Positions 3,840 through 21,435 of a DNA stretch of 24,104 bases are shown piece by piece; position 1 is the stretch's first letter; every line of letters begins with the position of its first letter. The stretch lies in the IMG/VR virus record IMGVR_UViG_3300017744_000145, positions 1 to 24,104 of that record; one strand, given 5' to 3'. The notes beneath the pieces are model-generated. The model did not search any database, was not told the origin of the DNA, and was given only the letters and a program-made list of their open reading frames with translations. Both the position numbers and the translations under genes were made by a program. Source of the stretch: a virus.

Positions 3840-4835
3840 ATGTTGGAGTTCCCTCGACAGATAGGGCTTAAGAGGTCTATTTGCAGAAGCAGAAGTGATT
3901 TTGCAAACTACATTAAAAGGTTGAACGGTAAAACCTCAATCTACACATCCCTCTATTCTTTCGATACTTTCGGAGAGTATGATTCCGCCGTCATGGATAG
4001 AGCATGGTGGGATTTTGATATGAACGACGATTTCACTATGGATGATGTCAAGCATGATGTAGCGGCCCTAATACAGCGTTTAGAGGGGGATGTGAGGCTC
4101 GTTGCGACCGGCAGGGGGTTTCATATCCATCAATGCTTCAAACGCCCCGTAAGAGGTCGAGAGTGGGCTATTCACCTCGATAGGTATGAGCGCGCTATGG
4201 CAGACGGACTATCAAGTCTTGATGGAGTCGGCTACCCTGAAAAAATGACAAGGGTTTCAGGAACATACAATCCAAAGAGAAGGAAGTGGGCAGTTACTAT
4301 TCCTGCGCAGGATTTTGCGCAAGACCCGTTCAATTACCGAATACCGGAAAAACCTTTACCGGAATATGACAGTATAGACCCATTCAAAGGTATTATTCAG
4401 GAAAATGATTGCTTCGATTTGGTTAAATGGGCGCATGAGAATCCAATTCCCTCAAGGAAAAGAACATATGAATCGAGTATCACTACCGTTTCAGTCGGCG
4501 CAAATACGGGGGAGTGCGCACTACCGACCTGCCTCGACAGAGCGATTAGAGTTTCTAATCCCCCACACCATGTTCGGGTGGCACTGGTTCAGGAGATGCG
4601 CAGACAATTGGCGTTCTACGCAAAGCCCTCTCAACTATCCGATGAAGAAAATTATGAAATAACAGACAGCATATGCTCTTTCATAGAGGGCTTGGGTTGG
4701 CTGGACTATCGAGAAGGAATTACCCGCAAATATGTTCTTGGCGCAGTGCGCAAATATGAACATGCGCCGAGTCCACTATGGTATGCTAAACATAATCTAT
4801 GTAATGGTGAAGGGTGTTGGTTCTGTGCGCAGTGA
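3840..4835 (+). CDS. Archaeo-eukaryotic primase, PriS catalytic part fused to PriL-like Fe-S tail
   Basis: A 331-residue single-chain primase that makes primers for the polymerase. The catalytic part shows AEP motif I D58/D60 (WWDFD), motif II GRGFHIH (H95, H97) and, at the end of the core, D128 followed by RVSGTYNPK (138-146), matching the motif III and R...S...K region of PriS. From about residue 220 the pattern changes to that of the PriL C-terminal domain: LPTC (C231), HHVR (H244), a helical stretch, then C321, C326 and C329 in LCNGEGCWFC, giving the cysteines for a 4Fe-4S cluster. PriS and PriL are separate in most archaea; fused forms are known in some small genomes and mobile elements. 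No good ribosome site precedes the ATG. The function call is firm; the Fe-S tail is a motif-based reading. Confidence 0.85.
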   Translation: MLEFPRQIGLKRSICRSRSDFANYIKRLNGKTSIYTSLYSFDTFGEYDSAVMDRAWWDFDMNDDFTMDDVKHDVAALIQRLEGDVRLVATGRGFHIHQCFKRPVRGREWAIHLDRYERAMADGLSSLDGVGYPEKMTRVSGTYNPKRRKWAVTIPAQDFAQDPFNYRIPEKPLPEYDSIDPFKGIIQENDCFDLVKWAHENPIPSRKRTYESSITTVSVGANTGECALPTCLDRAIRVSNPPHHVRVALVQEMRRQLAFYAKPSQLSDEENYEITDSICSFIEGLGWLDYREGITRKYVLGAVRKYEHAPSPLWYAKHNLCNGEGCWFCAQ

Positions 4836-5873: not shown

Positions 5874-5945
5874 GGGCTTGTAGTGTAGCGGAAGCACACC
5901 CTCAATGGTTGAGGGAGGTCGGAGGTTCAATTCCCCCCAAGTCCT
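5874..5945 (+). tRNA. tRNA-like gene, apparent anticodon TGG (Pro), unusual anticodon arm
   Basis: A 72-nt cloverleaf without encoded CCA. Acceptor GGGCTTG (5874-5880) pairs with CAAGTCC (5938-5944) with one G-U. D stem GTGT/GCAC has a loop containing GG. The T arm holds TTCAATT, the canonical loop, on a stem GGAGG/CCCCC with one A-C mismatch. The anticodon stem CCCTC/GAGGG (5899-5903, 5911-5915) encloses AATGGTT, so positions 34-36 read TGG. However, position 33 is A rather than the near-universal T, position 37 is T rather than a purine, and the loop bases can pair further, making a 7-bp stem with a 3-nt loop. Discriminator is T, not the A usual for tRNA-Pro. No TATA box precedes it, so it is probably cut from the + strand transcript. 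It may be degenerate or specialised. Confidence 0.7.
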
Positions 5946-5949
5946 CTAA

Positions 5950-8900
5950 TCAATAAGGCTTAAAGTTATCAGACTGCGCATTTGAATGAATACTGTTTCT
6001 GCGCATTTTAACGGATGTGTTATGGATTACAAGTGATTGATACGGCGCAGAATCTCCATCACGGGCCGGTGAACGAGATATTTCAATAAGTAATGTGTTA
6101 CCTGCTGTTTCTGCGCCGTCGAGGTTTTGCGTAGTCAATAGTGTAGTTGATTCTCTCGATGCCCCCATAGCAACGGTAGTGTTTTGAGATATGCTTTGCC
6201 CAGTTTCTTTACAAGTTATTGTAGTGGTGATAAGCGCAGAACCACCACTGCTAATAGTATCGAGCGTCAAAGCACCTTCAAGACCGACAATACCTGTGCT
6301 TATGTCATTCGGAACACGGACAGTCATAGAGTGGGTATGTATCTCTCCTTGTTCACCTGATTCCGAGTCCGTAATACCGGCGAGAACAAAACCTTCATTT
6401 GTCTTTATAGCAACTCCCTCTCCCGTAGAAAGGATGCTATCTATGCCGTCTATATCTCTATCAGAAGACAGTGCGACAGACGGCTTCTTTTGCCCTATGA
6501 TGCCCCAAGAACCCGCAGAAGCGTGCGTATCGGAGGAAAATGAAGCACGCCCCTTAATTACACGCATAGCCGCATTAGACATCTTATTGACATCATAACC
6601 TTGACTGTTGTTCACACTGCTTGAACCACCGCCGACAAAATCAGGAGGCAGAGAAGGTCGAGGATTGATAGCATCCCCGCCGCCCACATCAGGGGGTAGA
6701 GCAGGGGATGGGTCAGGTGAAGGAGGTGGGTTTTCAGGTCGGGCCGGATTGTTTGCGCCGCCACTGATAACCTGCGCAAGAGAATAGGCAAAGTGCTTCT
6801 CTGTTCTTTCAAGACCTAAAATTACTTTTTCTATCTGTTGTTCGTCTTTAGACCAACCAACAGAGTTTATAGTAAGAGTTTGAGTTTCTAAATCAATATG
6901 CGTATCTGTAAATGTGAGCGTGGTTGATGGCAGATAATTTATGTCTTTTACTATTGCTACGCGTGGTGCATAGTATGAGGCTCTTTCTTCACCCATATGA
7001 CCGAATACTGGATGTTGGCGCACACCAAGAGGAAATGCCGAAGCAAGATTAAATGAAGAATATGTAGATAGGCCGTCAATGTTATGCGCATTTATTGTAG
7101 AACCTGTTTGTTTGCGCACTATTGCACGCAAATACTCCGCATTTACAGAAACAAAAAGTTTTTTGCTTGTATCTCCTTGATAAGAAGAAGGAATAGTAAT
7201 TGGGTAATAACCGTTGCCATCAACAAGAACACTACTACTCCCTGAAAGTGATTGAATGTCATTTTGCGGAGGTTTGTTTCCGGCATCCGGCGCTTCATCA
7301 AAAGTATAGTCGAGAAGCCAAACTCTAAAAACTACATTATCTGCGGTAGAACCACTGTCAATTGTAATTGCTAATCTTAATTTATTTGAAGTGTCGGCAC
7401 TTACTAAATTAGTTCCTTTATCAACATGGATAATGTTTAATGCGTAAGAAAGACTGTTTGAGCCATGCCATGAATAAGCATGATTATAACCTCTTTCAAT
7501 GCCTTCAACCGATTCTAATGTATAAGTTCCGGCGGTTCCCGTTCTACTTCCTAATCCTGATTGACAATATATACTTAATTGAGTATTACCGGAGTTTGGC
7601 TCTAAAAAGTTCCAACCATCCGCAAGTGCTTTAGATGCACCATACACCGGACTACCTGAAAGTTGCGCCCACTTAGCAGTGTGGACTCTATTTGGTGAAC
7701 TACCTGACTCGACTATATTTAAAAGCGAACTGCCGTTTGAAACATCAACACCAACCGAAACCGGCCCCTTAACTCTTGGCTCTACACCTTTACTTTGCAA
7801 AGTATCGGTTTGAGATATTTGAGTATGAAACTTTCCGGTGTTTCTACTATTTTCCGCAGGTTTGTTAAAAGTTGTTTGCGCACTTTCAAGCGCAGACTGA
7901 ATACCTGAAAACGGAGAACCGCCCCATATGTTATTCCATGAAGCATTAGAATCAATATGTGCTTTAGTTCCTTGACGGTAAACATCCTGAACATAACCAT
8001 ATCTTGCGCCGGAAAGCATAATATCGTTTTCACCAGCCGCCCTGACTATCTGCGCAGTAATAGAAACTCTTGCATTATTTTCACGCGCATATTCTTGTTG
8101 CGCAATAGATAGTGCTTCATCTTCAGAAAAAATCTTTGGTTGTTGCAAAATACGCCATCGAGTTACCTCGCCCGAAACGGCTTCGGGATAATCTGCGTAG
8201 TTTGTATTACCGTTGTAAAAGACTCTAATGTTTGTTGCTTGAGAGCCAATCTGCGTGTTAAGGGAACTCATTAGCATATTGCTACGGGTAAGGGTATGGC
8301 CTGAAGCATAGGATGGTCTAAAAGTAAGCATATTGTCTCGATTTACACTCCATGTAAATGTTTTAAAATCGCCACCTATACCCGCACCTTCTTTGTCGCT
8401 CATTTGATTTAAAAGATTGAGAACAGTAGTTGCTTTTGCGTCAATAACTGAACCGTATGAATCTGTGTCGGCTCCTGAAGCCGCTAATTGAGTTGTAGTC
8501 ATGTTTTTTGTAATAGGAACTCCGCCAAAATTATACATCAAAGGCAGTGCGCTATTTTTAGCCCAAGTATCGGCAGTTAAAAGATTAAAAATAGTGCGCA
8601 GTTTATCGTGGGCAAAAAATGTTCCTGAGTTTGCAGAAGGTATATATCCTTGTAGATTTGTCATTAAGCGCAAAGAAAATAGTGCGGCAGTAGTATTGTA
8701 AACAATTGCAGTTTTAAACACACCTGCACCGTCTGCGCCGACTAAATCAATAACTGCATTTGAACCTGCGGCCCCATTTGCAACATCGGTTTTTAGCAAA
8801 ACTTCAAGAGATTTTGGCCCCATAATGTTCCCATTAGGATATGAAGTAATATACACTCCTGTTAATTTATCACCTTTTGTAGCATCTACGCCTTTGCCAG

Positions 8901-11900
8901 TCCATGAATAATAATAAATTAAATCTTCTGCGCTTCTACTATCGCCCTTTCTACAAACAATTGCTCCATAGCCTGATGTGTCAAATTGCGAAACATCATC
9001 TACAAAAATTGTAGTATCTGAAAGTGCTATGTCTTGATTTAAGAAAGAAAAGTCGTTAATCATATACTTTTGATTTTTATGTTTGATAAAAGTTGCATCA
9101 TCGTTATTTTTAAACGACAAAACGGCATTTTTCCAATAAGAATCGGTTAAGTATGGAGTTCCTGCTACTGCTAAAGTATAGTCGCCAAAATCAACTTGAC
9201 CTCCCGAAGAATACCCACTTCGACCACCTGTTGCGGCTGTGTTTAGGTTATAATATCGGGATGCGTCAATTATTACAAACGCACCTGCTGTTTCATCCCA
9301 ATTAGCATAGCGAGTATCAAGAGGTTCATCGTTTGAACCACCGGCTAAACTACACCAAGCATTGCCCGTGTAAGGTTCGGATTCTGCGTCAAACTTCCAA
9401 ATATCAATGTCTTCGCCAATTTTTAATTCCGTATAAACATCAGGCTCGCCGCCTTCATTAAATTGGTCTGCAACAGTTAATTGAACTTTGTAGTTATCAG
9501 AGGTTGGCAACAACAAACCAAAATCGTTTTTGCGGAAACCGCCGTCTGCGTCTGCTGTTCCGTCGTTGCGCATATCTGCCCAAAGAACATACAAATGCTT
9601 GTAAGAATCACTTGAATTATTGCGCAGACTGTAAATTGTTTTATCGGCTTGCCATTTTCTTTTAACGCCTTTAACCCCCGTTAATGTGATTTGCGCAGAA
9701 TTAAGATACTTTATTGTTCCTGTGTCATCGACGGGTTCAAAAGTTGCATTAGAGTTTGCTGTTCTTCTTTCGGTAATATGAGGTTCAGTTAAACGGACTT
9801 TGACACCATCGGGGTCTGAATAATGACGAGCAGTGCCGTAGTTCCAAGAAGAAGCATTTAGATTTCTTGCGTTCATGTAAGCAAACTCATTCACACCTGC
9901 TTCAAATGTTATTTTCTTTGCTTTGTAAACACCGCTACCTGCCGCCGCAGTTATTTGAAATAAACCATTTAACAAATTGTCTGAAAACCCTTCATGGATA
10001 ATAATGTTTCCAACAGTCCAAGTTCCTGAGCCTGATGTAAACTCTTCTGCGGATAAATCCCATGAGGTAGCGGCTTCTGTTAAAGTTCCTGAAACGCCGC
10101 TAAAAATAACATGCTGTGAGTCATTTGTTTCAATATCAACTAATTCAAGAATGCCATGCCTCATATCATTATAATTGAATAAATGCAAAATTGCGGGTTC
10201 GTCAATAACAATTGAAGTAGCACCCTGCGCAATATCTGCGTGCAAACCATCCCAACCTGTTACTGTTCCGTTTGAATTATATGACCCTGCGCCATGCGTA
10301 GCAATATACTGCGCAGATTTTGGGGTATTTAGATTTGAACCCGCACCAGCCCTCCATAAAGGTATTGCGTCAATTATGCCAAACTGCGCCTTAAAGAAAG
10401 GGGATAAAGGCAAATCCCTCATAATTCTTGCGTGGATGTTTCTATTTTTTACCGCTTGATGTTCTGCGTCGGTTAAAAGTGCGCCTTCAAACAAAACGGG
10501 TTTTACAAGCGGGTATCGCTTTGAGTCATCACTGTTTATTTTTGTTAAATTATAAGCCATACCGTAGTTACTTGTTACTGTTGCGGTATCAGAAACAGCA
10601 AGCGCAGAAGGCCAACTTTCAAGTTCAACATGAACAGTAGTAGCAGAAGGAACAGCAACAACCTTTAGGGGTGATGCCTTTAAAACAGAAGAACCAGTAG
10701 TGCCTATTCCCGAAGGCAAAATAAATACATCACCAATAGCAAGACTATGAGATGCCCTTGTTCGCAATTCAAACATAACACTTTTTACTACACTTCGATT
10801 AGTAGTTTTATCCAGTTTTGAGCGATAATGAATAGATTTACAAGTCCATTTATCTACCTCAAATAATCTATCTGTTGTTTCATCTGCGCCAGTAAAAACA
10901 CATCTAATTTCACATAAGTAAGTATTAACATCAATAGAACCATTCCCCGCAGAATTATACCTTCTTTTATGCGCAATAAGACCATTTAAAGCAATAACAT
11001 AATCTCCATCATAACCTGTTCCTTTAACAGTAATTGTATCACCTGCGGCTAAACCTTTGTATGTGCTTAACACTGTTGCGTATTGAGAAACTCCACTTGA
11101 TGCAAATGTTGGGTCTGTTGCTTCCTCCCACTCAACATAAAAACTGCGGGTGTTTGCTGTGCCATCTACTTTATGTTGAACTGCAATAATTTCAGAAAGG
11201 CTGTAAGTATCATTATCAAACCCAAATCCCTCCCATTCACTTTCAGGAAAATTAGGCCCGTCTTCGTCTTCACCCATATACATTTGAATAGCAGAACCTG
11301 AGTTTAAATGCGCTCTTGCGCTACTGTCTTTTTGAAACTTAACGCTATTTACTACATTGTAGAAGTTATGGCCTAAATCGCTGTTGCCAACAGTAAGAGA
11401 ACTTGCACCCATATTCATTTTTGTTAAAAGAGAAAGTGTGTCAAAATTAACTTGAGAAGAAGTAGAAGACATTGAAATATGCTCATTCAAAGAAAAAGTT
11501 GCACTACCTCCTGTTTCCCATAAAGGCAATACTCTATCAAGAATTGCCGATGAATCGCGAGCAGTAATTATTGTTTCAAGTGTTTGTTGATGTTTATTTT
11601 GTTTATGGTTTAAAGACTCAACAACTCCCGACCAAATAGGGCGTTCTTCTTCATCACGGAATGCTAATAAACGCCATTCTGTTGCACCTATTCCTGTTGT
11701 AAGAGCCGAAAGAGCATATTCATTTGAATCGTCATAAATAGACAAATTAAGAGTCGAAACATTATTTGAACCATATTTAAAAGCAAACTTGCCAACTTCG
11801 GGTTTTGCTACTGTGTTACCAATGTTATAATTTAAAGGCAAAATAACTCCGACTCTATCAATCAAAGTGTTTGTGCAAAGATGTGTTTTACTGTTAAGAT

Positions 11901-13131
11901 TAGCCCAAACTGCGTCTAAAGACCAACCTTTACTTGTTGTTAAAGAATTGCCAGTTGCCGCAATAGAACCATTAGTAAAATGAGTTGTGCTATCATTTAA
12001 ATATGCTTTCCATGTTCCTGCTGTATGGTCGAAAACAACATAAATATCGGCCCATATTTCATCTGCATTGTATATTCGTGCGCTACTTTCGCCATCATCC
12101 CACTTTCTAAAAACACCGGAACTATAACTCATTATGGTTTGAAGGTCAATTGCTACTGTTGCTAAAGGTGTTGTATCACTCCACTCGCCTGTCGATTTAG
12201 TAAAAGTTGCACTTGATTTGTAGCCAATTTTTAAAGAATAAGTCATTGGCACACCATCCATAATTCGATGTGAAGCCATTCTTATGTGAAAAACTTCACC
12301 TAAACCACGCAAACGCAAAGGCCCATTATAACTAATTAGTCTTTCAGTGCCGCTTGATGCTTGAGAATAAATGTTATTTATTAAAAATGGCATTTCACTT
12401 GGCGAAGTAATGTCATGCAAATAATTATCAGGTCTTGATTCTGTAATATCCATTGCTGTTTGCGGCCCTTCGCCGGTATAAACACTTGCAAAATGAGTTC
12501 TTTTTATTGCGCTTAAAGCCCACTGAGAATCGTCTTGTTGTCCTATGCGAGCATAACCTCCTGCAAGTGGCATTTTTGCGGCAGGAAGCCATGAAGAATC
12601 CGCAGGAATATAACCGTCTGCGCCAAATGTTAAATCCATAACACCCATTGGCGCAAAATAAGAACCGCTTGTATCATGTCCGTTTGTAAAATTAAGGTAT
12701 GAAGAACCACTTGCACCATTAAATCGAACTCTATTTGCAGACAAAGATGAAGGATGTTGTAGATTTGACCTATGTTCATAATCAGAACCAATTGACGGGT
12801 CAATAGTTAGCCATTCATGGATTCCTCTATTTATTGTAAGTTTATTGCTATTATTAGTAATAAATGTGCTAAGTCCTTCATCAACATCACTTTCTGCACG
12901 CACAGGGTCGCCCGAAGCATAATGCCCACTGCGCAGACGGTCAATGTAAGAATACGCATAGCGCGGATTAAGTATATTGGTTGCGCCAAAAATTGAACCA
13001 TGATGAGAGTTTTCGTGGTCGTGTGTGCGGATTCTTGCGTCGTTTAAATCGTCTGCAATTGCTCTTGCACCGTTAAAGTCGTCATAGTAACCTGCAAGCC
13101 AAAATGTCTGTTTTAACCCTATTGACCTCAC
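5950..13131 (-). CDS. Giant tail hub / tail-tip protein, 2393 aa
   Basis: Last gene of the tail module, directly after the tape measure, the place of the baseplate hub or Tal protein in siphoviruses. About residues 250-440 look like a LamG/concanavalin-type beta sandwich. Residues 455-535 (ending IWSGVVESLNHKQN...TLETIITARDSSAILDR) and 1570-1720 (with ATNIRVFYNG and EDEALSIAQQEYAREN) resemble the separated parts of gp27-like hub proteins, here with about 1000 residues between them. That insertion is beta-rich and contains one or two small modules also seen in the head-tail connector (around 1366-1428 and perhaps 966-1020). A Pro/Gly-rich linker (about 2127-2170) leads to a C-terminal beta domain of about 220 residues that may bind the host. 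Start is GTG, overlapping the tape-measure stop (GTGA), with GGAGG 9 nt upstream. Tail-tip role is well supported by position; hub homology is a motif-level impression. Confidence 0.8.
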   Translation of the reverse strand: MRSIGLKQTFWLAGYYDDFNGARAIADDLNDARIRTHDHENSHHGSIFGATNILNPRYAYSYIDRLRSGHYASGDPVRAESDVDEGLSTFITNNSNKLTINRGIHEWLTIDPSIGSDYEHRSNLQHPSSLSANRVRFNGASGSSYLNFTNGHDTSGSYFAPMGVMDLTFGADGYIPADSSWLPAAKMPLAGGYARIGQQDDSQWALSAIKRTHFASVYTGEGPQTAMDITESRPDNYLHDITSPSEMPFLINNIYSQASSGTERLISYNGPLRLRGLGEVFHIRMASHRIMDGVPMTYSLKIGYKSSATFTKSTGEWSDTTPLATVAIDLQTIMSYSSGVFRKWDDGESSARIYNADEIWADIYVVFDHTAGTWKAYLNDSTTHFTNGSIAATGNSLTTSKGWSLDAVWANLNSKTHLCTNTLIDRVGVILPLNYNIGNTVAKPEVGKFAFKYGSNNVSTLNLSIYDDSNEYALSALTTGIGATEWRLLAFRDEEERPIWSGVVESLNHKQNKHQQTLETIITARDSSAILDRVLPLWETGGSATFSLNEHISMSSTSSQVNFDTLSLLTKMNMGASSLTVGNSDLGHNFYNVVNSVKFQKDSSARAHLNSGSAIQMYMGEDEDGPNFPESEWEGFGFDNDTYSLSEIIAVQHKVDGTANTRSFYVEWEEATDPTFASSGVSQYATVLSTYKGLAAGDTITVKGTGYDGDYVIALNGLIAHKRRYNSAGNGSIDVNTYLCEIRCVFTGADETTDRLFEVDKWTCKSIHYRSKLDKTTNRSVVKSVMFELRTRASHSLAIGDVFILPSGIGTTGSSVLKASPLKVVAVPSATTVHVELESWPSALAVSDTATVTSNYGMAYNLTKINSDDSKRYPLVKPVLFEGALLTDAEHQAVKNRNIHARIMRDLPLSPFFKAQFGIIDAIPLWRAGAGSNLNTPKSAQYIATHGAGSYNSNGTVTGWDGLHADIAQGATSIVIDEPAILHLFNYNDMRHGILELVDIETNDSQHVIFSGVSGTLTEAATSWDLSAEEFTSGSGTWTVGNIIIHEGFSDNLLNGLFQITAAAGSGVYKAKKITFEAGVNEFAYMNARNLNASSWNYGTARHYSDPDGVKVRLTEPHITERRTANSNATFEPVDDTGTIKYLNSAQITLTGVKGVKRKWQADKTIYSLRNNSSDSYKHLYVLWADMRNDGTADADGGFRKNDFGLLLPTSDNYKVQLTVADQFNEGGEPDVYTELKIGEDIDIWKFDAESEPYTGNAWCSLAGGSNDEPLDTRYANWDETAGAFVIIDASRYYNLNTAATGGRSGYSSGGQVDFGDYTLAVAGTPYLTDSYWKNAVLSFKNNDDATFIKHKNQKYMINDFSFLNQDIALSDTTIFVDDVSQFDTSGYGAIVCRKGDSRSAEDLIYYYSWTGKGVDATKGDKLTGVYITSYPNGNIMGPKSLEVLLKTDVANGAAGSNAVIDLVGADGAGVFKTAIVYNTTAALFSLRLMTNLQGYIPSANSGTFFAHDKLRTIFNLLTADTWAKNSALPLMYNFGGVPITKNMTTTQLAASGADTDSYGSVIDAKATTVLNLLNQMSDKEGAGIGGDFKTFTWSVNRDNMLTFRPSYASGHTLTRSNMLMSSLNTQIGSQATNIRVFYNGNTNYADYPEAVSGEVTRWRILQQPKIFSEDEALSIAQQEYARENNARVSITAQIVRAAGENDIMLSGARYGYVQDVYRQGTKAHIDSNASWNNIWGGSPFSGIQSALESAQTTFNKPAENSRNTGKFHTQISQTDTLQSKGVEPRVKGPVSVGVDVSNGSSLLNIVESGSSPNRVHTAKWAQLSGSPVYGASKALADGWNFLEPNSGNTQLSIYCQSGLGSRTGTAGTYTLESVEGIERGYNHAYSWHGSNSLSYALNIIHVDKGTNLVSADTSNKLRLAITIDSGSTADNVVFRVWLLDYTFDEAPDAGNKPPQNDIQSLSGSSSVLVDGNGYYPITIPSSYQGDTSKKLFVSVNAEYLRAIVRKQTGSTINAHNIDGLSTYSSFNLASAFPLGVRQHPVFGHMGEERASYYAPRVAIVKDINYLPSTTLTFTDTHIDLETQTLTINSVGWSKDEQQIEKVILGLERTEKHFAYSLAQVISGGANNPARPENPPPSPDPSPALPPDVGGGDAINPRPSLPPDFVGGGSSSVNNSQGYDVNKMSNAAMRVIKGRASFSSDTHASAGSWGIIGQKKPSVALSSDRDIDGIDSILSTGEGVAIKTNEGFVLAGITDSESGEQGEIHTHSMTVRVPNDISTGIVGLEGALTLDTISSGGSALITTTITCKETGQSISQNTTVAMGASRESTTLLTTQNLDGAETAGNTLLIEISRSPARDGDSAPYQSLVIHNTSVKMRRNSIHSNAQSDNFKPY

Positions 13132-16100: not shown

Positions 16101-16583
16101 ACCTGTTTGTTGCGCAAGTTGAATAAGACGGTTCATACCCATTTCAGTTTCCATTTCACCAACTGCGGCCATCAAAAGACCGCCTCTTGTAGCCTCAATA
16201 ATTGCTTCTTGAGACTCAAGAACTTGTTTCAATTGCGCAGTTTTTGCAGAAGCCGCAAGCGCTTGGTCGCCACTAAAACCAAAAGCCAAACCTAATTGAA
16301 CTGTTGATTCTGCAAATCTTTCAACTTCTCCGGCTTGGCCTTGATAAAACTTGCGCACACGGATAAGTTGTTGCTCATACTCAAAAAACGCATCAACGAC
16401 AAGTTGAGTTGCGTCAATAATCTGCATGGCAGAATCATTAAAAGCATCACTAATTCCTGAAAGTGCATCACCAAGAATTGCTTGTTGAACAGTTAATGCG
16501 GCTTGAGTATCGCCAAGAAGAGTTTTTGCTTGAAAAGTTCCGACAATATCAAAAAAGACTCTTGCCGCACCTGCTTTTGCCAT
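13128..16583 (-). CDS. Tail tape measure protein, 1151 aa
   Basis: Sets tail length and sits inside the tail tube. It is long, helical and low in Cys. About residues 70-400 match the TP901-type tape-measure core: repeated Gln/Ala/Leu-rich helices, with AGTGLRMIYQRI and GSRHYVKFLKLM typical of the conserved part. Residues about 500-745 and 860-965 look like coiled coil. Residues about 763-856 are strongly hydrophobic, with several possible membrane spans, as in tape measures that insert into the host membrane. By the usual rule of about 0.15 nm per residue the tail would be near 170 nm. It lies just after the chaperone pair and before the hub, the standard order. ATG has GAGG 7 nt upstream and follows the GT-extension stop by 2 nt. 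Confidence 0.92.
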   Translation of the reverse strand: MAKAGAARVFFDIVGTFQAKTLLGDTQAALTVQQAILGDALSGISDAFNDSAMQIIDATQLVVDAFFEYEQQLIRVRKFYQGQAGEVERFAESTVQLGLAFGFSGDQALAASAKTAQLKQVLESQEAIIEATRGGLLMAAVGEMETEMGMNRLIQLAQQTGFMMGGLTDAQYELMTAEQQANIVRGNTIRVLDQLNTVENSSVAIMEDITFVLNQFSSQASIAGESIGEMAAMSALLLETGEEVSRAGTGLRMIYQRIGNENTAAVKVLDELIDGVDATGITQMKLTDIIKEIGPAYDSMTAEQKRNLAVSIAGSRHYVKFLKLMENQPRLLELQTAAYHGQYSALEEFGLRAETASFRQQQLEAVVTNLQIEIGDKLTDSYRKAAEGQAIFLKGINAIMETDMGGKAIGNLVALSGQYKTMIQPLADVGFSIFNLMIAFKTLDAVRKASNPQFYAEAQGYAATREEIKFLTTAKQNMAITDKENLFHLQGLTYRNQLFGNETLIATQKLGALNQESLETRLTMESLKATQTAMGKSLEMGANAAGKMNQAFNTLTGTMVVFNDAGMKQLKVDIEKLNGELGELTLKTQAQEAVQKRFIGLNAGGASAVAHYNALQSQGTKGMIERAKAQDTLAMTQEREIAYLTQTLTLTNPLNEAELRMARTKVAELNTAIQAEGIKKSEIQSRIVRLRLIDQEDQELNNLLITSQKEEEALMKRRNAVQMDILASEQSNAALKKRNLQIRQEVTGVNASTGAIIKYNFAMGMAGISIQGVTKAMMPLSMLFMLVGDGASQAGVMSVMLATMAFPMLTGAMMTLNTAMAEGVFLQTILTGGMNLLIAAAVMAGAYFGGKALFGGKDFLADEIAQIDSFNEGIMNTETNLASLSSREGSVLEGVIDETYADIIATNSATDAIARLDAELAELETSKSMAGNNNALVNQLKADISAAESAKLTLEGLQQSQTELSRTSAILTAGGLEMTEEQVSTSRSSYFGKHYRGEIVTTKERLAYTNLQGKYIEEDFNTIEERDARKLELQEEYNMTSLMQHEDYLNALLGTTLANNEEIIAAEKAANEEILGDAFQFANAREELFFGQRQNFTGTLMKQVSQGGIENLLHKTEIVQTNIFNGMTLPEMVTQVSQGVLDELRSGGLVA

Positions 16584-16585
16584 AA

Positions 16586-16873
16586 CTATTCCTCATTTAC
16601 CCAATTGTTCATTATGCCGCCCATTTTTTCGCTTGATATTTTTTCTGCTTGATGTCGTTTTTGATTTCTGCGTGCAACTGCGGATTTAGCCTTAGACTTA
16701 CTATTGGCTTCTTCCGTTTGCTCTTTAATTCTTTCTCCTATCTCTGCGGCAACATGAAGGTCAAACTCCATTCTTTGATAACCGTTTTCGTCATCATAAC
16801 GGTCAAAAAGTTGATTCGGAAGAATGCCTTTGAAAGTGCTTAACAAAGTTGGTGCGACCCTCCCGATTAGTCC
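16586..16873 (-). CDS. GT extension of tail chaperone, made by -1 frameshift
   Basis: This frame encodes about 95 residues with no ATG near its start. It is open upstream of its first possible initiator (TTG at 16846) right up to the CCCTTTG slippery site, and it lies in the -1 frame relative to the upstream chaperone gene. Frameshifting would give a fusion of about 210 residues: the G part up to its second-last residue, then GLIGRVAPTLLSTFKG and onward to NNWVNEE. The C-terminal half is charged and Lys/Glu/Ala-rich. In lambda the T part of gpGT contacts tail tube subunits and G binds the tape measure; by position this pair should do the same. A GGGAGG lies about 11 nt before the TTG at 16846, so independent initiation cannot be fully excluded. 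Confidence 0.8.
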   Translation of the reverse strand, partial: GLIGRVAPTLLSTFKGILPNQLFDRYDDENGYQRMEFDLHVAAEIGERIKEQTEEANSKSKAKSAVARRNQKRHQAEKISSEKMGGIMNNWVNEE

Positions 16874-17217
16874 AAAGGGATAGCGCCCTCTAATGTATCG
16901 CCTCGGACAAATCCGAGAATATCTCTTATCTCTAATGAGGTTAAGGTGTTAATATCAAAATCTTTTGGTTCAATAACGCAGGTAGGAATCCATGTCATAA
17001 TTTGGTCGGTCATTCCACCGCCTTCTTCATCGAGCATTACAGCAAACTCTTCATGTTGTTCAGGAGTCCATTCTGTCGGGTCATTACCAAAGTGTCGCAA
17101 TTTGCGAAAAACCTTTGCTTGTATATTTTCAATTCGCAATTTTTCCATACCGGATGCTTGGCGAACCCAAATCTTTTTTCCATCACTTAATTCAATCTCT
17201 TTCTTCAATACTGGCAT
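16867..17217 (-). CDS. Tail assembly chaperone, G-like, 116 aa
   Basis: Small acidic protein immediately upstream of the tape measure, the fixed place of tail assembly chaperones that coat the tape measure during tail building. N-terminal segment VLKKEIELSDGKKIWVRQAS is strand-rich, followed by helices. It ends in IPLD just after the slippery heptamer at 16873-16879. Most ribosomes should stop here, and a fraction should shift into the GT extension. ATG at 17217 is preferred because GGAT lies about 11 nt before it; an in-frame GTG at 17226 would add three residues. The sequence family is not one I can name; assignment rests on position, size and the frameshift. Confidence 0.8.
   Translation of the reverse strand: MPVLKKEIELSDGKKIWVRQASGMEKLRIENIQAKVFRKLRHFGNDPTEWTPEQHEEFAVMLDEEGGGMTDQIMTWIPTCVIEPKDFDINTLTSLEIRDILGFVRGDTLEGAIPLD
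16873..16879 (-). other. -1 ribosomal frameshift slippery heptamer CCCTTTG
   Basis: On the - strand the zero frame reads ATC CCT TTG GAC TAA. The heptamer C CCT TTG fits X XXY YYZ exactly, in the correct phase, two codons before the chaperone stop. After slipping one base back, the codons are CCC TTT GGA CTA and the frame runs on without a stop for about 95 codons. Location just upstream of the tape measure matches the conserved G/GT frameshift of long-tailed phages. Confidence 0.8.
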
Positions 17218-17305: not shown

Positions 17306-17497
17306 TCATTGGTCTTCAAATGTAATAATTCCCATATAGTTGTTTCCAACAGGTTTTCTTATTACTGAAATATCTACTATTTTGTCTCCGTTTGCCAAAG
17401 CACGCAAAGCCGCTTGTATCTGCGTATGAATTGTTAAATGCGTTCCGTAAACTACCGAAGTAGTCATTTTTGCGGCGGCGGTTATTGTATGAGACAT
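17306..17497 (-). CDS. Small virion-block protein, 63 aa, unknown
   Basis: Lies between tail tube and chaperone genes. ATG at 17497 has a G-rich GGGGG about 8 nt upstream. The product has a mixed strand/helix look: MSHTITAAAKMTTSVVYG, then a helix TQIQAALRALANGDKI, then two strand-like stretches. No Cys, signal or membrane span is seen. No family recognised. Its place in the tail operon suggests a structural or assembly role. Confidence 0.65.
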   Translation of the reverse strand: MSHTITAAAKMTTSVVYGTHLTIHTQIQAALRALANGDKIVDISVIRKPVGNNYMGIITFEDQ

Positions 17498-20951: not shown

Positions 20952-21260
20952 TTACTTCACCTGTTCTTTTAGTTTTGCGATTAACTCATCCTTTGTTCCC
21001 TTTGCGTCAATCCCATGTTCTGCGCAAAGATTCATAACTTCTGATTTGCGCATACGCTTTAATTTTGAAAGAGAGGGGAGACTTTTTGCTTCTTCAATAC
21101 TTTCTTTAACATCATCTACTAAATCAAGTGCTTCATCAAGCGAAATACTACCGTCTGCCATAGCAGAATCATACGCACTGCGCAGTTTTTTGTAATGCTT
21201 AAGCGCAAAACCTATTCCAAATAATCCAACCGCCAAACTTGCTACTACAATTTCATTCAT
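20952..21260 (-). CDS. Membrane-anchored SAP-domain protein, 102 aa
   Basis: Start at 21260 chosen because GGAAGG lies about 8 nt upstream; a start at 21284 would add eight residues. Residues 4-20 form one hydrophobic helix (IVVASLAVGLFGIGFAL) followed by KHYKK, typical of a membrane span with positive residues after it. Residues about 35-60 are an acidic helix. Residues about 66-100 (LKRMRKSEVMNLCAEHGIDAKGTKDELIAKL) fit the SAP/Rho-N helix-extended-helix fold that binds DNA. The union of a membrane helix and a DNA-binding tail among neck genes is unusual. It might act in DNA ejection or be a minor virion protein. Confidence 0.7.
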   Translation of the reverse strand: MNEIVVASLAVGLFGIGFALKHYKKLRSAYDSAMADGSISLDEALDLVDDVKESIEEAKSLPSLSKLKRMRKSEVMNLCAEHGIDAKGTKDELIAKLKEQVK

Positions 21261-21435
21261 AATTTTTACCTTCCTTGTATTCAATAGTTATTGCTTTTGA
21301 TAGCGGAATAACCATGAAATGTTGCGTATCGCCATCCCTGTATAAACGGTAGCCATGCGGTGTCTCTTCAATGTTTATGTTTGTATAACATCGTTCAGGG
21401 GGTTGATAAACTATTTTTCCTTTTCTTTTTGTCAT
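21253..21435 (-). CDS. Small protein, 60 aa, unknown
   Basis: ATG at 21435 has GGTGA 5 nt upstream, a good archaeal ribosome site; a GTG at 21444 in frame is an alternative. The 3' end overlaps the next gene by 8 nt. The protein is basic at the N-terminus (TKRKGKIVYQPPERC) and then strand-rich (GYRLYRDGDTQHFMVIPL, AITIEYKEG). No family recognised; a small virion accessory is a guess from position. Confidence 0.6.
   Translation of the reverse strand: MTKRKGKIVYQPPERCYTNINIEETPHGYRLYRDGDTQHFMVIPLSKAITIEYKEGKNYE

Follow-up and report, generated by a model that had tools for sequence, protein, structure and literature searches.

A conserved C CCT TTN heptamer and a very probable programmed -1 frameshift in the tail module of a family of probable marine archaeal viruses

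Organization of the tail module

The window (the whole 24,104-nt stretch of viral DNA analysed here, positions 1 to 24,104 of IMG/VR record IMGVR_UViG_3300017744_000145) contains two overlapping ORFs, hereafter G and T, between its tail tube and tape measure genes (Table 1). The order on the minus strand is tube, a 63-aa ORF, G, T and tape measure, and the arrangement tube-G-T-tape measure is maintained in relatives. The tape measure start at 16583 follows the T stop codon (16586-16588) after 2 nt, which agrees with the initial annotation of this DNA, where the site had been placed just upstream of the tape measure gene, as in lambda G/GT. The 63-aa ORF found no match in Pfam; tblastn detects it at 41-98% identity in nearly all relatives. 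As to the start of G, ATG 17217 is the likely one, and GTG 17226 is unlikely to be used because several relatives have a stop codon just upstream of the homologous ATG.

Table 1. Coordinates of the tail module features within the window
Feature	Coordinates	Strand	Remarks
G (0 frame), tail assembly chaperone-like protein of 116 aa	16867..17217	-	AlphaFold2 pLDDT 94
Start (ATG) and stop (TAA) of G	17217; 16869-16867	-	
Slippery heptamer C CCT TTG	16873..16879	-	C CCT TTN in 114/120 loci, core CCT TT in 119/120; codon statistics
GAGG, internal Shine-Dalgarno-like element (GAGGG)	16887..16890	-	7 nt upstream of heptamer
T, -1-frame extension, 95 codons past heptamer plus TAG stop	16586..16872	-	C-terminal domain of the predicted 210-aa fusion
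Tape measure protein, 1151 aa	13128..16583	-	Matches to PF10145 (E 1.4e-11) and to several tape measure families in PHROG
Tail tube protein, 346 aa	17512..18552	-	PF18906 Phage_tube_2 (E 1.3e-12)
63-aa ORF between tube and G	17306..17497	-	Conserved in relatives

G is predicted by AlphaFold2, with high confidence, to consist of a beta hairpin and four helices, while T is predicted to be entirely helical (pLDDT 83). The best PDB fold matches of G, to the HK97 tail assembly chaperone 2ob9, are weak and non-significant (E 0.15-0.20), and its weak viral fold matches include several annotated tail assembly chaperones. G also strongly matches the viral protein A0A516M8M4 (53% identity), so that members of its family are present in UniProt. 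The initial annotation had called G a chaperone: its position, its architecture and the weak fold match suggest such a role, whereas neither G nor T matched a known chaperone family by sequence.

Elsewhere in the window, the tape measure gene is followed by a 2393-aa ORF (5950-13131, minus strand), which overlaps the tape measure stop by 4 nt at its start, has no Pfam match and probably encodes a tail tip or fibre protein. A small protein with a SAP domain at its C-terminus is encoded within the morphogenesis region (20952-21284, minus strand). The 331-aa protein encoded at 3840-4835 (plus strand), flanked by a PD-(D/E)XK nuclease and an ERCC4 nuclease, matched nothing in Pfam or the phage collection and is possibly a primase, a guess from its position and the look of its sequence.

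The slippery site and its conservation among relatives

The 3' end of G reads GAG GGC GCT ATC CCT TTG GAC TAA, in which CCCTTTG (16879-16873), read as ATC CCT TTG, constitutes an X XXY YYZ heptamer in phase with G, 3 nt before its stop codon. Upstream of that stop the -1 frame is already open for 79 nt, and it runs on to its own stop; a tandem slip at the heptamer would produce a G-T fusion of 210 aa, with 95 codons beyond the heptamer. No ATG lies near the beginning of T, the first start-type codon being TTG 16846. The phase of the heptamer and the open -1 frame of about 95 codons without an early ATG had both been described in the initial annotation and are borne out. Its further claim that chance is unlikely cannot stand on one sequence: in-frame XXXYYYZ occurs at 32 of the 7296 codon sites in the genes of the window (0.44%), and is expected by chance at about 2% within the final four codons of a gene and at about 11% over the whole 26-codon overlap, so that the heptamer and frame relation seen here are suggestive, and it is the comparison with relatives that is decisive.

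Viral contigs were searched with G, the tube protein and T, the T search being independent of the heptamer, and this yielded 120 distinct loci having both frames, with G identities between members as low as 39%. Alignment of such relatives had been proposed in the initial annotation as a check, and both the frame relation and the heptamer proved to be kept: all 120 loci place T in the -1 frame relative to G, 119 retain the core CCT TT, and 114 retain C CCT TTN in full. The A-site codon of these 114 is TTG in 88, TTA in 14 and TTT in 12.

Codon statistics were computed on 42 representatives (nucleotide identity <80%); the background codon frequencies ignore phylogeny, which the choice of diverged representatives partly corrects. 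The slip-site proline is encoded by CCT in 42/42 representatives (background 0.335 at other G prolines; log10 P -19.9) and the slip-site leucine by TTR in all 36 cases where leucine is present (background 0.513; log10 P -10.4), and 39 of 42 have a C directly before CCT, against 5.4 expected (P 7e-33). Conversely, another nearly invariant proline column of G uses all four codons. Codon choice at the heptamer thus far exceeds what protein constraint would demand, and on these statistics the heptamer is shown to be under purifying selection.

Third-position (wobble) variability follows frame 0 as far as the heptamer and the -1 frame directly after it. Some loci have a stop codon 7-10 nt upstream of CCT that closes the -1 frame, and others have the 0-frame stop immediately after TTA, so that a shift point common to the family must fall within 13 nt (-7 to +6 of CCT), a segment that contains the heptamer. 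The alignment of the T peptide PF...VAPxLCSxFKG is free of gaps all the way from PF to the end of the FKG motif, while the G stop sits anywhere from 0 to 15 nt beyond the heptamer. Across the aligned loci, T-frame coding is thereby shown to begin at the heptamer.

The possibility that T is a separate gene, translated from its own start codon or through coupling to the G stop, draws on the TTG at 16846, at which the initial annotation had envisaged independent initiation, and on the in-frame ATG that occurs in some subclades in a CMAFKG or APM context. Nevertheless, five diverged representatives (L008, L051, L024, L133 and L086) lack ATG, GTG and TTG throughout the opening 30 codons of T, and because some relatives are devoid of any start-type codon there, separate initiation is excluded as an explanation for the family as a whole. 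It would also leave the codon-level constraint on CCT TTG unexplained, it conflicts with the VAPxLC block and the spacing without gaps that the -1 frame conserves ahead of any possible start, and it does not suit the predicted T fold, whose first helix begins directly after the shift site. We consider this scenario very unlikely. Slippage of the RNA polymerase, adding or removing the base in the transcript, is extremely unlikely: CCCTTT contains no long A or T run of the kind that bears on transcriptional slippage, and the conserved codon phase together with the upstream GAGG suits ribosomal slippage better. The odds that the frame change reflects an assembly or sequencing error, or a recently broken G, are practically nil, as the relatives refute it: in 120 distinct loci the two frames stand in the same -1 relation, and the 0-frame stop falls at several different positions. 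The ribosomal frameshift at the heptamer is accordingly the reading retained below.

Several candidate additions to the site were rejected. T TTG GGN as an alternative slip site is present only where GGN comes next, and is not conserved. Sliding-window folding of the 42 representatives, in search of a downstream hairpin or pseudoknot, gave a mean z never below about -0.8 in any tested window near the site, similar to control positions. The window also encodes a viral tRNA-Pro (TGG) at 5874-5946 (plus strand), and the same tRNA is found in a near-identical relative (record G001, 64.7 kb, with a tube protein 99% identical). As a conserved helper at the CCU slip codon this tRNA was discarded, being carried by only 2 of 18 records; a tRNA-Ala (TGC) replaces it in two other relatives, and most carry no tRNA.

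Upstream element, natural variants and proposed mechanism

The glutamate codon located four codons upstream of the slip site is GAG in 26 of 33 cases among the representatives (background 27%; P 1e-9), and it is only at this segment, within the last 94 nt, that the computed pairing with the CCUCC of 16S rRNA beats synonymous shuffles (z -7.9). These comparisons show purifying selection on GAGG beyond codon usage, and the element is probably an internal Shine-Dalgarno (SD) stimulator of the slip. Its 7-nt distance from the heptamer is shorter than the SD spacing of bacterial -1 sites, which is 9-14 nt (PMC5009743). Start codons in this virus family show little SD, SD-like motifs being patchy ahead of the G and tape measure starts. 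We also considered a local hairpin, GAGGG-CCCTTT, for which covariation is impossible as the heptamer is invariant; since GAA would pair about as well as GAG in such a hairpin, the preference for GAG favours the SD reading.

Relatives that keep both frames and lose the heptamer had been named in the initial annotation as evidence against frameshifting. Six such loci exist, all in or beside one clade in which the A-site codon is TTT, and they qualify rather than refute the frameshift claim. According to the tree, A-site TTT arose once, in a well-supported clade. The upstream C was lost five times, always in this TTT clade and across several of its branches, and in 0 of the 75 TTG/TTA members. 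One locus closely resembling the TTT clade and absent from the tree (L248, 2470-2500) has CAT TTT instead of CCT TTT and keeps both frames; it is either a reduced site that would use the TTTT run or an error. The GAG preference is near background in the TTT clade (5 of 13 glutamate codons), with Fisher P 0.003 over all loci and P 0.18 over representatives; since the latter is non-significant and TTT has a single origin, SD loss in this clade is only suggestive.

Taken together, G and T are very probably a single unit of programmed -1 ribosomal frameshifting, of the lambda G/GT kind, with GAGG probably helping. Most ribosomes would end at the G stop and release the 116-aa chaperone. A minority would pause when CCU occupies the P site and UUG the A site; their tRNAs would slip back by one base and pair anew with CCC and UUU, the leucine tRNA matching only two of its three bases on UUU. 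Translation would then continue in the T frame to give the 210-aa G-T fusion. GAGG, lying 7 nt upstream, would aid the slip by pairing with the 3' end of 16S rRNA. As in lambda, G would bind the tape measure protein and T would recruit tube subunits. The efficiency of frameshifting, the anti-SD pairing, the binding partners and the archaeal host are elements of this scheme that we infer.

The natural variants would fit a simple accounting of tRNA pairing. With UUG or UUA in the A site, the leucine tRNA would re-pair only partly on UUU, so that complete re-pairing on CCC would be required of the proline tRNA. Phenylalanine tRNA, reading UUU, would re-pair completely, and fewer demands would fall on the rest of the site. 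It is conceivable, and we propose it tentatively, that an anti-SD contact of the translating archaeal ribosome with a GAGG located 7 nt upstream promotes -1 slippage at C CCU UUR, and that a trade-off exists in which A-site UUU, with its full re-pairing, has relaxed the demands on both the upstream base and the SD element.

Host assignment and comparison with known systems

The host is likely to be archaeal, judging from the replication genes and from the resemblance of the module to haloviruses. Archaeal-type replication genes occur together with tailed-virus (Caudoviricetes) morphogenesis genes: PolB is nearest to that of haloarchaeal tailed viruses (23%), the window encodes an ERCC4-HHH (Hef-type) nuclease, and in record G001 the RFC small subunit is nearest to archaeal RFC. 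The same record has an AAA_5 ATPase gene (L169:67-2614) adjoining one for a DUF7192 protein, which resembles the AAA + VWA (CobS/CobT-like) pair of HVTV-1. Were the host bacterial, the site would be an ordinary phage G/GT frameshift. In the phage collection the tape measure indeed finds its matches in bacterial phages, the clamp loader matches T4-like phages as well, and 84,980 GTDB species genomes queried with tube and G contained no relative, so that no archaeal host genome was linked; no named phage relatives were found for the tube, G, the portal or a 308-aa head-region protein. Against a bacterial host stand the affinities of PolB and RFC, the presence of the Hef-type nuclease and AAA_5 genes, and the fact that PolB, these two genes and tube family PF18906 are common to HVTV-1. 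We therefore regard a bacterial host as unlikely, and the term "archaeal" used in the initial annotation is probably right, judging from the replication proteins and the halovirus-like module.

The unit shares with lambda G/GT a small gene between tube and tape measure, a -1 heptamer near the end of that gene and a C-terminal -1 extension. It differs in its heptamer (G GGA AAG in lambda, C CCT TTG here), in the upstream SD-like element and in the probable archaeal host, and the two have no detectable sequence similarity. No conserved downstream structure was found in the present family, and lambda G/GT is also understood to function without one. An internal SD upstream of a slippery heptamer, comparable to the SD-like element here, is found in E. 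coli dnaX, which differs in being a cellular gene and in having a 3' stem-loop.

Frameshifting of the -1 G-T type has already been reported in the haloarchaeal tailed viruses HVTV-1, HCTV-1, HCTV-2 and HCTV-5 (Druskaviridae; PMC5009743, PMC8211752), and the halovirus Hardycor1 has a predicted -1 X XXY YYZ site upstream of tmp (HrrHc1_110/115; PMC7911831); the archaeal example highlighted in the initial annotation is thus of interest without being the first. HVTV-1 displays the same order of PF18906 tube, joined chaperone CDS and tape measure, and also possesses PolB, Hef-type nuclease and AAA_5 genes, in addition to VWA genes. Its 0-frame tail past the site is longer, and no sequence similarity was found between G and the HVTV-1/HCTV chaperones. 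The HVTV-1/HCTV heptamers are G GGA AAN and A AAA AAC (PMC5009743), unlike C CCT TTG here, the HVTV-1 site itself reading GAG GGA AAG, i.e. G GGA AAG. The Hardycor1 site differs as well (G GGA AAT), and concerns a single virus and one provirus relative, with no family-wide test cited.

According to a 2021 review, the archaeal virus -1 cases are predictions in a few haloviruses, and experimental study of archaeal -1 frameshifting has been confined to a single case, in a Saccharolobus enzyme gene (PMC8211752). Sulfolobus fucA1, described as the sole -1 case reported among the cellular genes of archaea (PMC8211752), similarly involves -1 frameshifting by an archaeal ribosome but is a host enzyme gene with an A-rich site. 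Heptamers like the present one have been proposed outside archaea, namely C CCU UUA for Giardia virus, where it is contested (PMC8230311), and CCCUUUG/T for a few West Nile virus genomes (PMC3574045). The family of probable marine archaeal viruses described here provides strong evolutionary evidence that such a -1 site is used, and short, well-defined test sequences for frameshifting by archaeal ribosomes. It combines a fixed heptamer that differs from those of the haloviruses with a candidate stimulator, and its natural variants tell which parts of the site matter.
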